Assembly (NCBI RefSeq): GCF_004785955.1
Contig: NZ_SJER01000005.1
Span: 186,001-250,000 of the forward strand
Direction of reading: 5' to 3'
Source: Halostella litorea
GTDB lineage: Archaea; Halobacteriota; Halobacteria; Halobacteriales; Natronoarchaeaceae
DNA: 64,000 nucleotides
Under the pieces are notes generated by a model. It made no database searches and was not told the origin of the DNA. It worked only from the letters and a program-made list of their open reading frames with translations. The position numbers and the translations under genes are program-made. Shown here piece after piece: positions 12,840-64,000 of this stretch. The first letter of the stretch is position 1; each line of letters begins with the position of its first letter.

Positions 12840-13391
12840 TTAGGCCTCGCAGATCCGCCGGAAGTTCTCGAGCAGCTCCTCGCCCTCCTCGGTGTGGGCG
12901 ACCTCGGGGTGCCACTGGACGCCGTAGAGGTCCCGGTCCGTGTCGCTCATCGCCTCGACGTCACAGACGTCGCTCCGGCCGGTGAGATCGAACCCGTCGG
13001 GGAGTTCGGTGACCTCGTCGGCGTGGCTCGCCCACACCCGCGTCTCCGGGGCCAGCGACCCCGTGAGCGGGTCGTCCTCGTCGAGCACCTCGACGGTGAC
13101 GTCGGCGTAGCCGCCGTACTCGCCGCTCCCGACGCTGCCGCCCAGCTCCTCGGCAATGAACTGCATGCCGAGACAGATGCCGAGCACGGGCACGTCGAGT
13201 TCCAGGTACTCCGCGCAGCGCCCGACGTCGTCCATGTCGGGACCGCCCGAGAGGACGACGCCGTCGGCGTCGACCTCGTCGGCGGGCGTGTCGTTGTCGA
13301 CCATGTCGGTGTCGACCCCCATGTCCCGCAGCGCGCGCTGTTCGAGGTGCGTGAACTGTCCGTGGTTGTCAACCACGACGATCCGCGTCAT
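12840..13391 (-). CDS. guaAA: GMP synthase subunit A (glutamine amidotransferase)
   Basis: This 183-residue class I glutamine amidotransferase releases ammonia from glutamine for XMP amination. The nucleophile elbow GICLGMQ places the catalytic Cys at residue 73, and the His-Glu pair is in VQWHPEVAHT near residue 165. In archaea the amidotransferase and ATP pyrophosphatase halves of GMP synthase are separate proteins, as here; subunit B is not in this window. The start MTRIVVVDNHGQF is typical for the family. Confidence 0.95.
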   Translation of the reverse strand: MTRIVVVDNHGQFTHLEQRALRDMGVDTDMVDNDTPADEVDADGVVLSGGPDMDDVGRCAEYLELDVPVLGICLGMQFIAEELGGSVGSGEYGGYADVTVEVLDEDDPLTGSLAPETRVWASHADEVTELPDGFDLTGRSDVCDVEAMSDTDRDLYGVQWHPEVAHTEEGEELLENFRRICEA

Positions 13392-13523
13392 TACGTCCCG
13401 ATAGCCGCCCGGACGGTAAAAGCGGTCCGGAGTGTGCCGGCTCCGCACGGCGGCGAGAGCGCCTTCGACGGTCGGCCGCCCGCTCTCGGTACAACTATGG
13501 CACGCGAGCACGAGGGCCGAGGT

Positions 13524-13664
13524 ATGACGAACCCCCTCGACGGCTTCGACCACCCCGCGTGGCGGACCGCGCTCGGCACCGGCGTCGGCTACGGCGTCAT
13601 CCTCGTCGGCATGACGCTGCTGCTGTTCGGCCTGCCGTACCTCCTGTTTACCGCGCTGGGCTGA
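13524..13664 (+). CDS. Small single-helix membrane protein
   Basis: This 46-residue protein has a polar N-terminus (MTNPLDGFDHPAWRTALG) and a hydrophobic half that can form one long or two short membrane helices (VGYGVILVGMTLLLFGLPYL). The gene is divergent from guaAA and convergent with the DICT gene, whose stop is 9 bases away. Similar tiny proteins are common and conserved in haloarchaea. The function is unknown. Confidence 0.6.
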   Translation: MTNPLDGFDHPAWRTALGTGVGYGVILVGMTLLLFGLPYLLFTALG

Positions 13665-13673
13665 ACGGCCGAG

Positions 13674-14414
13674 TCAGACGGTCGCGGCGGACGTCTGGAG
13701 CGTTTCGAGGCGGGCTATCGTGTCGTCGACGACCGCCGGGTCGTCGGACCAGAAGCCGTAGAACTCGTTCGGGCCCCGCTCCTGTGCCAGCAGGAGGCTC
13801 TTGTCGGCGTCGTCCCCGTCGCCGTCGTACGCCACCCACCAGTGGTCGACTATCTCGTCGGCGTCGCTGGCGTGCACCCGGAGCCCCAGGTCCTTCGCCG
13901 ACGCGACGGTGTCGCCGTCGCCCGCGCCGTACACGTGGACGTCGAGCCCCTTCCGGCCGAGGTTCCGGTAGACGTTCCGCTGGAAGTCGATCTTCGAGAG
14001 GTCCTGAAAGCCGGCGTGGAGTTCCCCCTCGCCGACGTTCCACCCTCGGAATTCCACGATCCGCGAGGCGTGGATCATCCGCCGCTTGTCGTAGGACTCG
14101 AAGCGCGTCTCGGTCATCGACTCGACGACCGACGGCGGCGCCGTCCGGACGTTCGGGGTCTCGCCGCCCTGCCACCCCTCGACGTACTGCCGGAGGTCGC
14201 GCAGGGGGTCGGCGGCCAGGAACCGGCCGTCGGATTCGAGAACGACGACGTCCCGCGGCAGGCCGCTCTCGGTCCGGTCTATCGTCAGGTCCACCTCCTG
14301 GGAGGAGAAGTAGCTCGCGACCTCGTTCAGGTCGGCCCGCTCCCCGGTGAAGTTACAGATCCGTAGCGTCTTGTCGCTGGTCCCGGTGTCGTGAACGATC
14401 TCCGACAGCGTCAT
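13674..14414 (-). CDS. DICT-domain sensory protein
   Basis: This 246-residue soluble protein matches the DICT sensory domain family, found alone in haloarchaea and fused to GGDEF or EAL domains in bacteria. Visible features are an N-terminal region (LRICNFTGERADLNEVASYF) and conserved Trp/Tyr motifs (VDHWWVAYDGDG, PNEFYGFWSDDPAVVD). The family is thought to sense a ligand or light-linked signal, but the stand-alone haloarchaeal form has no known output partner. AT-rich sequence (cttaccaagggtttatac, 14420-14437) upstream gives TATA-like promoter options. Confidence 0.85.
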   Translation of the reverse strand: MTLSEIVHDTGTSDKTLRICNFTGERADLNEVASYFSSQEVDLTIDRTESGLPRDVVVLESDGRFLAADPLRDLRQYVEGWQGGETPNVRTAPPSVVESMTETRFESYDKRRMIHASRIVEFRGWNVGEGELHAGFQDLSKIDFQRNVYRNLGRKGLDVHVYGAGDGDTVASAKDLGLRVHASDADEIVDHWWVAYDGDGDDADKSLLLAQERGPNEFYGFWSDDPAVVDDTIARLETLQTSAATV

Positions 14415-14533
14415 CTCATCTTACCAAGGGTTTATACGGCAAAACAGTACCGCCCCAAGCCGCGATTGCCGGCTCCCGCCCGCCACGCGAGCGACGGGGG
14501 ATCCGGCGGACCGAAAATCGGACAGTCCCGGCG

Positions 14534-15748
14534 TCAGGCGAACGTCTTCGAGACGTCCTCCTCCTCGGACTCCGCCTGGATCTTCTCGTAGGCGTCCTCG
14601 AAGTCGGACTGGCGGATCTCGGTACGGTCGTCGCGGATGGCGAACATGCCGGCCTCCGTGCAGATCGCCTTCACGTCCGCGCCGCTTGCATCCTCGGCCA
14701 TCTCGGCGAGCGCGGCGAAGTCGACGTCGTCGGCCGTGTTCATGTCGCGGGTGTGGATCTCGAAGATGATCTCGCGGCCCTCGTGGTCCGGCTTGGGCAC
14801 CTCGATGAGGCGGTCGAAGCGGCCGGGGCGGAGGATCGCGCGGTCGAGCATGTCGAAGCGGTTGGTGGCGGCGATGATGCGGATCTCGCCGCGATCCTCG
14901 AAGCCGTCCATCTCCGAGAGCAACTGCATCATCGTGCGCTGGACCTCGGCGTCGCCGGAGGTCTTCGACTCCGTGCGCTTTGCCGCGATGGCGTCTATCT
15001 CGTCGATGAAGATGACGGCGGGTTCGTGGTCGCGGGCGACCTGGAACAGGTCACGGACCAGCTTCGCGCCCTCGCCGATGAACTTGTGGACGAGTTCGGA
15101 GCCGGCCATCTTGATGAACGTCGCGTCGGTCTCGTTGGCGACGGCCTTCGCGAGCATCGTCTTCCCCGTCCCGGGCGGGCCGTACAGCAGGACGCCGCTG
15201 GGCGGCTCGATGCCGACCTCGTCGAATGCACCGGGCTTGTTTAGCGGCATCTCGACGGTCTCGCGGACCTCCTGCATCTGTTCCTCGAGGCCGCCGATGT
15301 CGGCGTACGTGACGTCGGGGCTCTCGCTGACCTCCATCACACGGGCGCGGACGTCGGTCTCGTCGTCGAGCGTCTTGACGACCGAAAGCGAGTTGTTGAC
15401 CGCGACCCGGCTGTCGGGCTCGATGTCGGTCCGCATCTCGTCGGTGACCTCGGTGAGGGCCTCCTGGTTGTTCCCGTGCTGTTTGATGATGACGCCCTCG
15501 TCGGTGACCTCCTGCACCGTCGCGACGAACAGCGGGGACTGCTTCAGCTTCTTGTTCTCGTGGGTGAGCCGCTCTAGCTTCTGCTGGTACTTGTTGTTCT
15601 CGGCGTTCGCGTCGAGGAGCTTGTCGCGCATCTCCTCGTTTTGGGTCTCGAGAACCTCCAGGCGCTCGCGTAACGCCTCGATCTTCTCCTGTTGGGACGT
15701 GTCCTCCTCGTCGTAGGGGAGGTCGACGTCTTCCACGGTGTCGGTCAT
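14534..15748 (-). CDS. pan: Proteasome-activating nucleotidase PAN
   Basis: This 404-residue AAA+ ATPase unfolds proteins and feeds them to the 20S proteasome. It has an N-terminal coiled coil (about residues 14-70), an OB-fold domain (about 75-135) and an AAA module with Walker A GPPGTGKT, Walker B IFIDEIDAI and the arginine-finger region LRPGRFDR. The C-terminus is SKTFA, so the gate-opening HbYX motif has Phe where Tyr is usual. The ATG at 15748 is preferred over an in-frame GTG three bases earlier. Confidence 0.96.
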   Translation of the reverse strand: MTDTVEDVDLPYDEEDTSQQEKIEALRERLEVLETQNEEMRDKLLDANAENNKYQQKLERLTHENKKLKQSPLFVATVQEVTDEGVIIKQHGNNQEALTEVTDEMRTDIEPDSRVAVNNSLSVVKTLDDETDVRARVMEVSESPDVTYADIGGLEEQMQEVRETVEMPLNKPGAFDEVGIEPPSGVLLYGPPGTGKTMLAKAVANETDATFIKMAGSELVHKFIGEGAKLVRDLFQVARDHEPAVIFIDEIDAIAAKRTESKTSGDAEVQRTMMQLLSEMDGFEDRGEIRIIAATNRFDMLDRAILRPGRFDRLIEVPKPDHEGREIIFEIHTRDMNTADDVDFAALAEMAEDASGADVKAICTEAGMFAIRDDRTEIRQSDFEDAYEKIQAESEEEDVSKTFA

Positions 15749-61313: not shown

Positions 61314-61576
61314 GCCTCGACGAACTCCGCGAGGAGATAGAGAGCATCGACCGCGAACTCGTCGAACTCATCGCGCGGCGCACCTACGTCGCCGACACCG
61401 TCGCGGAGGTAAAAGAACAGCACGACCTGCCGACCACCGACGAGGCCCAGGAGGCGGCGGTGATGGAACGCGCCGGCGAGAACGCCGAGCAGTTCGGCGT
61501 GGACGCGAACCTCGTGAAGGCGATCTTCCGGCTGCTGATCGAGTTGAACAAGGTCGAACAGCGCGAGAGTCGTTAG
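61271..61576 (+). CDS. aroQ: Chorismate mutase, AroQ type
   Basis: This all-helical enzyme of about 101 residues turns chorismate into prephenate for Phe and Tyr. The motifs are SLDELREEIESIDRELVELI, RRTYVADTVAEVKEQHDLPT and the final helix AIFRLLIELNKVEQRESR. Starts at 61247, 61271 or 61310 are all in frame; the last would overlap the aroK stop as ATGA. The final coding bases are duplicated downstream at 62340-62361, as if an insertion had replaced the original gene end. Confidence 0.92.
   Translation: MADDDTDGRRPDEMSLDELREEIESIDRELVELIARRTYVADTVAEVKEQHDLPTTDEAQEAAVMERAGENAEQFGVDANLVKAIFRLLIELNKVEQRESR
61547..61568. repeat. Left direct repeat at the aroQ 3' end
   Basis: These 22 bases encode the aroQ C-terminus (NKVEQRE). 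They match 62340-62361 at 21 of 22 positions. The two copies flank the LysE-type gene, like left and right attachment sites of an integrated element. Confidence 0.8.
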
Positions 61577-61630
61577 CAAATAGCACACCATCGGAAAGTA
61601 CATACTCGGGAGTCGCTTCCGGCTAATTGT

Positions 61631-61638
61631 GAGGTGAT
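61631..61638 (+). promoter_or_regulatory. Ribosome binding site of the LysE-type gene
   Basis: The sequence gaggtgat is fully complementary to the expected haloarchaeal 16S rRNA 3' end. It ends 8 bases before the ACG at 61647. Most neighbours look leaderless, so this strong site stands out and helps fix the start. Confidence 0.6.
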
Positions 61639-61646
61639 GCGTATTA

Positions 61647-62267
61647 ACGACAGCGACAATCGGCATCCTGATTCAGGGTATCGTTCTCGGATTCTCGATT
61701 GCGGCCCCGGTCGGCCCGATCGGAGTCCTGTGCATCCAGCGAACGCTTTCTAAAGGCCGGCTCTCGGGGTTCGTCAGCGGCCTCGGAGCGGCGTCTGCGG
61801 ACGCCGTGTACGGGTCGATTGCGGGGTTCGGTATCACGGTGTTATCGTCGCTCCTGCTCGACCATCGGACGGCTATCCGTATCGGCGGTGGCCTCCTTCT
61901 CCTGTACCTCGGCGCTCAGTCGTTCCGTGCCGAGCCAGCAGAGACGGCGGTGTCCCCGTCGGACGTGGAGGGGCTCGTCAGGGACTACGGTTCGACGTTC
62001 CTACTGACGATAACCAATCCCGTGACCATTCTCGCCTTCATCGGCATCTTCACCGGACTGGGGGTCGGCGTCACGGGAGACTACACCGATGCCGCCGTGT
62101 TGGTTTGCGGTGTCTTCGTTGGCTCAGCGCTCTGGTGGTTCGCCCTGAGTATCGGTGTAAGCCGCTTCCGTTCGCGGTTCACTCGCCCGGTCATGCGTCG
62201 GGTGAATCAACTGGCAGGTGCAATCATCGTCGGCTTCGGGCTGCTCGGCCTTTGGAGTGCTCTGTAG
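61647..62267 (+). CDS. LysE family exporter with apparent ACG start codon
   Basis: The frame encodes about 206 residues of a six-helix LysE/RhtB-type amino acid exporter: the start IQGIVLGFSIAAPVGPIGVL, then ADAVYGSIAGFGITVLSSLL, and the conserved FLLTITNPVTILAFIGIFTG. No ATG, GTG or TTG exists in frame before 61806, which would cut off the first helix. An ACG at 61647 sits 8 bases after a perfect ribosome site, where an ATG is expected, so the start codon seems mutated. An ATG at 61637 is in another frame. The segment is lower in GC than its surroundings and lies between direct repeats. Confidence 0.75.
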   Translation, partial: TTATIGILIQGIVLGFSIAAPVGPIGVLCIQRTLSKGRLSGFVSGLGAASADAVYGSIAGFGITVLSSLLLDHRTAIRIGGGLLLLYLGAQSFRAEPAETAVSPSDVEGLVRDYGSTFLLTITNPVTILAFIGIFTGLGVGVTGDYTDAAVLVCGVFVGSALWWFALSIGVSRFRSRFTRPVMRRVNQLAGAIIVGFGLLGLWSAL

Positions 62268-62284
62268 TCGCGTTCTCTGTTTTC

Positions 62285-62294
62285 TTCGGCCGAA
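62285..62294. terminator. Perfect palindrome after the LysE-type gene
   Basis: The 10-base palindrome ttcggccgaa lies 18 bases after the stop and is flanked by T-rich and A-rich runs. It may act as a terminator or protein site, but it lacks a loop and a following T-tract. Confidence 0.3.
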
Positions 62295-62339
62295 AACGCA
62301 GCAAAGTAGACGAAGTCCGTAACGTCAGTTTGAGACCTA

Positions 62340-62361
62340 AACAAGGTCGAACAGCGGGAGA
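62340..62361. repeat. Right direct repeat, second copy of the aroQ 3' end
   Basis: These 22 bases match 61547-61568 except for one C to G change. Read in frame they continue to NKVEQRENR and a TAG stop at 62367-62369, a complete chorismate mutase C-terminus with no gene before it. This copy is probably the original gene end, displaced by the insertion. Confidence 0.8.
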
Positions 62362-62440
62362 ACAGGTAGCCGTACACTGTTCGGAGGGGCTCTCCTGAGA
62401 CGGTCGAACGATATGCTACCGACGTGACTCGCGTCCCGCC

Positions 62441-64000
62441 TCAGTCGTCCGCGCTGCTCGAAACCGTCGGGGTCGGCGGCTCGGCGGCGGACGGCTCCGA
62501 CCGGACCGGCTCCCACTCCAGGTCACCCTGGTAGTGGAGCGCCGCGTTCTCCTGTTCGGGGTCTATCACCGTCAGCTGTATCCAGCCGTTGTCGAGGAGC
62601 CGGAGGAGTTGCTCGTGCTGGCGGAGGATCCCGGTGACCTGCTCGACGGGCGCGTGGATCAGCGCCGTCAGGCGCAGGGGCTGGTGGTGTGGCCGGTCGG
62701 CGTCGGCGTAGAGCGACTGGAGCGGGAGGCCGGTCATCAGGTCGCCGCCGTTGCCCTGGAACACGCCGACGTTGCCGACCGGGTTCTGCGTCACCTTCGA
62801 CCCGCTGCCGTAGACGGCGTTGTCGACCGTGGCGAAGTAGTACTGGTTGTTGATCCACTGGGTGACCACGAGCGGGCCGGTGAGGATGGACTCCAGCGCG
62901 TCGCCGTCCGGGTCGGTGCGCCAGTCGTAGGAGTGGAGGAACGTGCGCCCGCCGAGGTCCTCGTCCGCGGTCAACTCGCGTGGGCCGACGACGAACGAGG
63001 CGTTGCCGGCCAGTCCCCACTCGGGACGGGTCTCCGCCCAGTCGGCGGCCCGGCGCTGCGTCTCGCGGACGCCGTCGGCGGTCGTGTCCGCCATCGAGTC
63101 CGTCCGCTCCGCGGCCGCGCCGGCCTGGGCTTCCGCGAGGTCGTCGCGCAACCGTTCGAGGTCCTCCCGGTGGCTCTCGGGCACCGCGCCGTCGAACAGG
63201 GTGACCTCGTCGGTCGTCGTGTTGTGCTCGGCGGCGAGGAACACGGTGTCGGCGGGGACGTCGAACCCCTGCTCGCGCAGTTCCGCCCTGACGTCCTCGT
63301 CGTTGCAGATGGCCGCGAGGACGCGGGCGTTCGGGCCGCCGGGGTTGCCGGCACAGGCCCCGCAGTCGAGGCTCGAATCGAACGGGTTGTTCGCCGTCTG
63401 ACTGGCGTGGCCTGTGAAGACGACGAGGCGGGCGAACTCCTCCCAGCCCATCAGTTCGAAGGCCGACCGGGCGTACTCGACTTTCTCCTCCAGGTGGAGG
63501 CCCTCCCGGAGGTCGCGGACGGCATCCGGGTTGTAGTCGACCGACGGCTCGCAGAACACGCGTTCGGCGGGCGCACGGTCGGTGTCGTGGACGGCGTCGT
63601 AGACGCGGGCGGGGAGCAGCGTCCGGGCCGCGAGCGCGGCACCGTACCCCGGCCCGGCGTGCTCGACGAAGCTGAACGCCGTCGCCGCGTTGGATTTGAG
63701 CGACTTCAGCACGCCCTTGCCGGCGTTCAGGACCCCGTGCCAGCGGTCGTAGCGCTCCCGCTTGCCGTCCGCGCCGCCGGCCGGGCGGTCGGTGATGCGG
63801 TGCTGGGCGTCGACGACCGGCGGACAGGCGTCGACGGCGACGTCCGCGTCGTAGGCCTGATGGCGCATCGGGACGCCGAAGAACCCCGCGTAGCCGTGGG
63901 TCTCGTACGGCCCGACCGCCTCGATGTGGCGGCGGATGACCTCCGAGCGCGTGTCGATACAGAACACGAGCTGTGCGGCCCGCCGGCCGGACTCGTCCGC
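62441..64000 (-). CDS. dabA: DabA-type inorganic carbon uptake subunit (DUF2309), partial
   Basis: The frame runs off the window end, so the N-terminus is missing; 519 residues are visible. The carbonic anhydrase-like site is seen in [10 protein letters not shown], with zinc Cys and catalytic Asp-Arg, and in [10 protein letters not shown] plus DCGACAG, which supply the second His and Cys ligands. DabA pairs with the membrane protein DabB to accumulate bicarbonate. DabB would be expected upstream, beyond the window. A low-complexity C-terminus ([14 protein letters not shown]) ends the protein. Confidence 0.9.

Follow-up and report, generated by a model that had tools for sequence, protein, structure and literature searches.

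Integrative elements use the ends of tRNA genes and restore the target, and those that enter gene ends are large and usually carry an integrase of their own. PAISt is one such case, described in the available part of its report as a site-specific insertion at the 3' end of bacA. Toxin–antitoxin genes are abundant in chromosomal integrons and also form part of the cargo of Acinetobacter dif modules. Integrons, as the accessible text sets out, consist of single-gene or single-operon cassettes in head-to-tail arrays, with one site per cassette, a fixed insertion point and no recombinase in the cassettes; archaeal integrons were reported from 75 MAGs in nine phyla, and words beginning 'halobacter', 'haloarchaea' and 'halophil' occur zero times in the main text as available (PMC9668308). 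In Acinetobacter dif (pdif) modules, adaptive genes lie between copies of one short recombination site, and the paper, in the portion available, credits the modules to the Xer recombination system of the host (PMC6449649). Neither 'cassette' nor 'chorismate' appears in a review of archaeal tyrosine recombinases, which in its accessible passages mentions integrons only among functions or reference families (PMC8371274). We found no description of aroQ-end cassettes in haloarchaea in the open-access literature searched, which is a weak negative given that most subscription journals and preprints lie outside it.

Compared with these systems, the units that we found at the 3' end of aroQ, the chorismate mutase gene, seem by analogy to act like integron cassettes and dif modules, and we file them under neither. 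With integrons they share the growth of an array at a single position, a site for each cassette and the lack of any recombinase found in the 69 units delimited here. They are not filed as an integron because no intI-type integrase stands by the aroQ array (searched with PF00589 and five Halostella-derived models), and the insertion site, unlike that of integrons, is the end of a coding gene. The dif modules are matched in small unit size (42 of 69 units are no longer than 1.2 kb) and in a wealth of toxin–antitoxin or adaptive genes, a PIN or MazF toxin being detected in 32 of the 69 units by iterative search from five hand-picked seeds. However, dif modules have Xer sites and occur, as far as the available text goes, mainly in plasmids, whereas the site here is the 3' coding end of one archaeal housekeeping gene, the last codons of which would be renewed with each insertion. 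Finally, as with gene-end integrative elements, the gene end is duplicated at insertion and the target restored (seen at the window repeat and at the L092/L098 junctions, below), but an own integrase was found in 0 of 69 units, most units measure 0.7–1.5 kb and they stand in runs of unrelated cargo.

The window, by which we mean the whole 64,000-nt stretch of Halostella litorea DNA that was analysed (G000:C4:186001-250000), contains an AT-rich unit of 793 nt, counted from left to right repeat copy, with one LysE-type gene (Table 1). The original prediction had proposed, from the letters of this stretch, a 22-base direct repeat with one mismatch that encodes the AroQ C-terminus twice, the right copy being an orphan with its own stop, on either side of a single LysE-type gene. 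All of this holds: the repeat lies exactly where predicted (61547-61568 and 62340-62361) and widens to 31 nt at 84% identity, the left copy reads ELNKVEQRESR and the right NKVEQRENR, each followed by a stop, and PF01810 identifies the enclosed gene. A third copy within five mismatches is absent from both strands of the 64-kb window, and a whole-genome search with a 21-nt pattern at up to three mismatches returned the two window copies only (reversed pattern, 0). The low GC counts were likewise correct (29/60, or 48.3%, and 28/60, or 46.7%). GC is 59.9% for 61577-62339 compared to 70.4% for the window, a value as low being reached by 0.03% of 763-nt segments, and it falls near 50% in both non-coding flanks of the cassette. 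We consider it very probable that this interval is a non-autonomous gene cassette inserted site-specifically, a confidence that excludes the identity of the enzyme. Between the two forms that had been suggested, a remnant or a small mobile cassette, the latter is favoured, the remnant being weakened by similar sizes and borders and open frames in many genera.

Table 1 Features of the aroQ end and the LysE cassette in the window
Feature	Position	Strand	Basis and remarks
aroQ, chorismate mutase, 109 aa	61247..61576	+	ORF; Pfam CM_2, E 8.8e-21; host gene, with insertion at its 3' end
aroQ-end core, left copy (NKVEQRESR and stop)	61547..61576	+	present functional gene end
17-nt stretch identical in both copies	61547..61563	+	sequence, AACAAGGTCGAACAGCG
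Cassette left arm, non-coding, 50% GC	61577..61640	+	starts CAAATAGCAC, as units L092.1 and L098.3 do on their left
Shine-Dalgarno-like GAGGTGA ahead of lysE	61631..61637	+	by eye; present in several homologues too
LysE-type exporter gene (cargo)	61641..62267	+	PF01810, E 4.9e-28; frame opens after TGA at 61635
Cassette right arm	62300..62339	+	class 2 arm, 0.85 match to class consensus
aroQ-end core, right orphan copy (NKVEQRENR and stop)	62340..62369	+	sequence

To place this arrangement in context, we assembled aroQ loci from haloarchaea, each extending as far as 10 kb beyond the gene. The 30-nt gene ends supplied a weight matrix, with which the DNA on either side of aroQ was scanned. Above 20 bits, 70 further aroQ ends were found downstream on the aroQ strand (714 kb scanned), compared to 0 on the opposite strand of the same DNA and 0 on either strand upstream (701 kb); control 21-mers from other parts of aroQ gave on average 0–0.2 matches per locus, with one locus at 0.5. 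Further ends occurred in 46 of 79 loci; the other 33 had none above 18 bits, the contig in some of these stopping soon after aroQ. Each of the five Halostella genomes has at least one further end. Successive ends delimit 69 units in the 46 loci (28 loci with one unit, 13 with two and 5 with three), with a median length of 1030 nt and 62 of 69 units no longer than 2.5 kb. These counts omit L045 and L023 (duplicates of the L022 and L028 records) and L091, L101 and L107 (aroQ end missed by the pattern). L079 is a second Halorubrum salinum contig whose aroQ end and further end repeat those of L075; it is counted among the 70 ends and not among the 79 loci or 69 units.

Across the class, the end pattern was matched in 377 of 391 genomes and was present in two or more copies in 180 (111 with two, 52 with three, 10 with four and 7 with five), these totals being tallied by hand from a table and the places being those among the matches listed. 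All copies lay on a single strand in 172 of the 180 genomes versus about 70 expected with independent strands. These data bear on an alternative in which the repeat arose by chance or by duplication of part of a gene, and LysE is an ordinary gene caught between the copies by coincidence. Two 22-nt copies could stem from a local duplication, and one of the 70 ends, at 4292 in L086, is a true longer duplicate that closes a second, longer shikimate kinase–aroQ stretch and forms no bare orphan. Nonetheless, we regard this account as extremely improbable for the window, in view of the 70 to 0 asymmetry of strand and position, the 180 genomes with multiple copies, the conserved arms outside aroQ and the lack of any other place in the window within five mismatches of the repeat; as a general account it was rejected on the asymmetry, the genome scan and the L092/L098 comparison. 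Beyond what had been predicted, insertion at the aroQ end appears to be general in the class, and in the loci read the runs reach three units.

A difference between close relatives was found in Natronorubrum, where two arrays differ by whole units at the aroQ end, an outcome in favour of the original prediction. Downstream of aroQ, N. sulfidifaciens (L092) and N. bangense (L098) are 96.1% identical across 4189 nt, and for the final 399 nt of the gene itself the figure is 93.5%. L098 has two extra units, of 1378 and 386 nt, and they sit precisely where aroQ ends. On the left, the extra DNA borders aroQ sequence common to both species; on the right, it runs on into the aroQ end of L092 and the flank native to that species, the core differing at two bases. 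Both borders share the 14-nt stretch GAGTTGAACAAGGT. L092 is empty for these two units only and has a cassette of its own, and the difference may reflect either gain in L098 or loss in L092. Past the second core, Halorubrum aquaticum (L051) exceeds H. cibi (L067) by about 690 nt; since no core can be recognised at the right border of the extra DNA, we do not treat this pair as a clean example of a unit difference. At the level of aligned DNA, comparison demonstrates recurrence at a single site, conserved arms, precise borders and sister species that differ by the gain or loss of entire units. A unit, complete with arm and core, is either there or missing where aroQ ends, its border falls within 14–17 nt and, as the alignments read, one gene end is renewed and the other displaced. 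The predicted insertion into the end of aroQ with restoration of its frame is therefore supported by comparison across haloarchaea.

We also traced the LysE gene itself. The window LysE family was found in 28 of 382 genomes at E 1e-30 and was absent at this threshold from the other four Halostella genomes, which contain distant relatives with 31–32% identity. The three closest homologues (G229, G222 and G025) adjoin aroQ, and in two of these genomes the core spacing around lysE is 792 nt versus 793 nt in the window; in G025, a second core was not found in the 1.5 kb beyond LysE. On this comparison, the same LysE unit occurs in several genera. For 24 of the 28 matches, the 1.5 kb around the gene contained no core, although the G330 copy is found about 2.7 kb past one; the LysE family therefore lives elsewhere too. 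Near its 5' end, the lysE frame of the window has no in-frame ATG, GTG or TTG and reads GTA TTA ACG. In the homologues L174, L179, L180, L182, L185, L189, L190 and L192, the GAGGTGA motif is kept (window 61631-61650), and several have GTA TTA ACG or near variants at the expected start; a non-standard start codon or odd initiation is possible for this family.

Haloarchaea recombine readily. Donor DNA holding aroQ and the array might spread cassettes between lineages by homologous recombination, through aroQ at one end and a core or a downstream gene at the other, with no site-specific enzyme, and the last 400 nt of aroQ, 86–96% identical between most compared relatives, may suffice for such exchange. 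This would leave unexplained the origin of the same core and arms on unrelated cargo, and it fits poorly with a right border confined to 14 nt in L092/L098. The LysE case leans against it as well: between the window and G229, G222 and G025, DNA identity is 84.7–85.9% for lysE and 80.4–84.6% for aroQ versus 70.8–74.5% for shikimate kinase. We therefore consider homologous recombination improbable as the full explanation, although it may be a secondary route.

Site-specific insertion of a cassette could proceed as follows. A DNA circle, presumed here, with one gene or operon and one attachment site would recombine with the 3' end of aroQ, the crossover falling at about TG/AACAAGGT and the cassette supplying the last 8–10 aroQ codons and the stop. 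The gene would stay intact, its old end would become an orphan beyond the cassette, and successive insertions would produce runs of two or three cassettes. A tyrosine recombinase would act in trans, as suggested because no unit was found to carry one. In the window, the crossover should lie in the 17-nt stretch identical in both copies. The left core copy, 3' of that point, would then have been brought by the cassette, and the right orphan copy would be the older, displaced gene end, by analogy with the L092/L098 junctions.

The 30-nt aroQ ends that form the cores hardly differ from one another, and the arms are specific to a class: the flank left of the orphan core is non-aroQ, non-coding and common to units with unrelated genes, and by our own grouping it falls into three main classes, the window belonging to class 2. 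We searched the class-2 arm alone in 382 genomes. At up to two mismatches there were 28 matches, of which 27 were placed (24 by reading the DNA and 3 by coordinates, G233 being the match left over), and the core or its first bases followed 10 nt on in 27 of 27. Among the 24 sites read, 18 had a core of at least 15 bits and 6 were damaged by small deletions or diverged, two of the latter retaining little beyond the first core bases. At exactly three mismatches, 26 distinct sites were read, comprising 4 with a core, 1 doubtful and 21 without, mostly elsewhere; these look like chance matches because a reversed-arm control also gave about 35 matches by hand count. Close class-2 arms therefore belong to the aroQ-end site.

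An imperfect palindrome with a 5-nt spacer lies at the crossover (GACCT-GAACA-AGGTC in class 2). With all sites pooled its paired fraction is 0.58, the runner-up axis reaches 0.56 and other axes are higher within classes 2 and 3, so that the palindrome is only suggestive as a recombination signal. The right-hand flank beyond about 40 nt was also considered as an arm and rejected, as judged by eye its motifs track the cargo, TACCCACTATTACCCAC in mazEF units and TCTTACCAC...GGTGGT in vapBC units; both are probably toxin–antitoxin operators. In L243, L244 and L201, the class-2 arm is followed by AACAAGGTTTCCCAAAGG or a close variant, and only the first aroQ core bases are kept. This may represent a diverged end or a second target gene.

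Next, we examined the cargo of the units. Among the first 25 of 94 Pfam families in 150 unit ORFs, there were 20 matches to PIN, 9 to PIN_2, 11 to PemK/MazF, 6 to HTH_10, 2 to ParE and 2 to PHO4, the PIN counts overlapping in that some proteins match more than one PIN model. The ORFs were picked by our own rule of length and acidity, which has probably let in some spurious ones, and from an initial 161 the scan omitted 11 that were short. Other cargo includes transporters of amino-acid, phosphate/sulfate, Nramp and bile-acid-symporter type, FAD oxidoreductases, a methyltransferase, hydrolases and HTH_10 regulators. Much of it consists of single operons, with toxin–antitoxin, transport, regulatory or redox genes. 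Comparison of related aroQ loci, proposed along with the original prediction, revealed different cargo at the same position within Halostella, the four first units that could be named holding LysE in the window, a PHO4-type permease in G001, an AhpC/TSA-like gene in G002 and a PIN-domain gene with a partner in G003; that of G004 gave a weak Bles03 match. Neither of the outcomes named in advance as contrary was seen, whether a LysE gene of normal GC in every relative or a right copy missing from most strains. In N. bangense, the first unit encodes AbrB and PIN proteins, the second (386 nt) has no annotated gene and the third encodes ribbon-helix-helix and RelE/ParE proteins, with a pair formed by a hypothetical gene and PemK/MazF past the last detected core.

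We then looked for an enzyme near the array. The predicted absence of an integrase is borne out, with 17 PF00589 matches in the genome and 0 inside the window; the single match on the window contig (C4:171438-171887) is about 75 kb from aroQ. The five Halostella genomes have 4 to 17 matches each, the nearest in G002 being about 26 kb from aroQ, and among the matches listed none is within 15 kb of the gene in any of the five. Five Halostella-derived integrase models applied to 83 loci detected no integrase inside any of the 69 units, and no recombinase or transposase family was matched in the 33 unit ORFs of at least 200 aa and 7 of the 12 of 150–199 aa (Pfam, E 0.01). Tyrosine integrases lie within 10 kb of aroQ at 2 of the 83 loci, 1.1 kb downstream in L096 and 3.3 kb downstream in L061, both found with the family A model, which we take to be SNJ2-like. 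L096 has no second core, the L061 integrase lies beyond the last core of its locus, and no tRNA gene in the 20-kb loci accounts for either. These two genes, at 13672-14712 in L061 and 11433-12557 in L096, match Halostella family A. The elements that carry them could also use the aroQ region.

Such integrases raise the alternative that elements with an integrase of their own, such as SNJ2-type proviruses or plasmids, insert at the 3' end of aroQ, and that the units are satellites of these elements or what is left of them after decay, with the viral or plasmid integrase acting in trans. The genes near aroQ in L096 and L061 and the 4 to 17 PF00589 matches per Halostella genome are in keeping with it, but the 69 units are free of detected integrases, the two nearby integrases stand apart from paired cores, the cargo is largely single operons and viral contigs yielded no convincing attP. 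On balance, we think this explanation rather unlikely. The viral contigs had been searched for a parent virus or plasmid with an aroQ-end site, using two patterns that returned 1 and 32 stretches; the best candidate attP, L108 at 26.5 bits, was rejected as it looks like the end of a viral coding sequence, and all others scored below 16 bits.

For a cassette moved in trans by a host enzyme, a XerA-like recombinase is the candidate that we favour, tentatively. Its gene was found in 378 of 382 genomes at E 1e-40 and is so nearly universal as to be non-discriminating. The protein could act in trans in nearly all haloarchaea searched. Among NCBIfam models it matches archaeal XerA best, with 109.6 bits compared to a curated cut-off of 220. 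The broader proposal is a haloarchaeal integron-like system without intI or attC, in which the aroQ 3' end is a class-wide platform, cassettes rebuild the gene end and a XerA-like enzyme acts in trans. We put it forward as a possibility, though one that is less likely than not. If true, it would be a class-wide archaeal platform for gene capture, independent of an integron integrase and landing in the coding end of a metabolic enzyme. Extra NKVEQRxxR-type ends downstream of aroQ could then serve as a marker with which to collect archaeal gene packets, many of them toxin–antitoxin pairs and genes of unknown function. The site would also provide a defined substrate for probing the role of the haloarchaeal XerA-like recombinase, and it could serve haloarchaeal genetics as an insertion locus.

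Several further observations concern the neighbourhood of individual arrays. In the window, the gene to the right of the array (62441-63967, minus strand) presumably resembles the DabA/DUF2309 inorganic-carbon protein, and a similar ORF follows the array in L099. The N. bangense array (L098, NZ_CP031307.1 16234-36533), with two toxin–antitoxin pairs in its units, is carried by a replicon labelled plasmid unnamed2, which also holds shikimate kinase and further genes that look like core genes. In Haloparvum sedimenti (L086, about 13237-14594), a second shikimate kinase-like gene and aroQ stand inside the array, about 4.3 kb downstream of the first and with their own IFRLLIELNNVEQRESR end.
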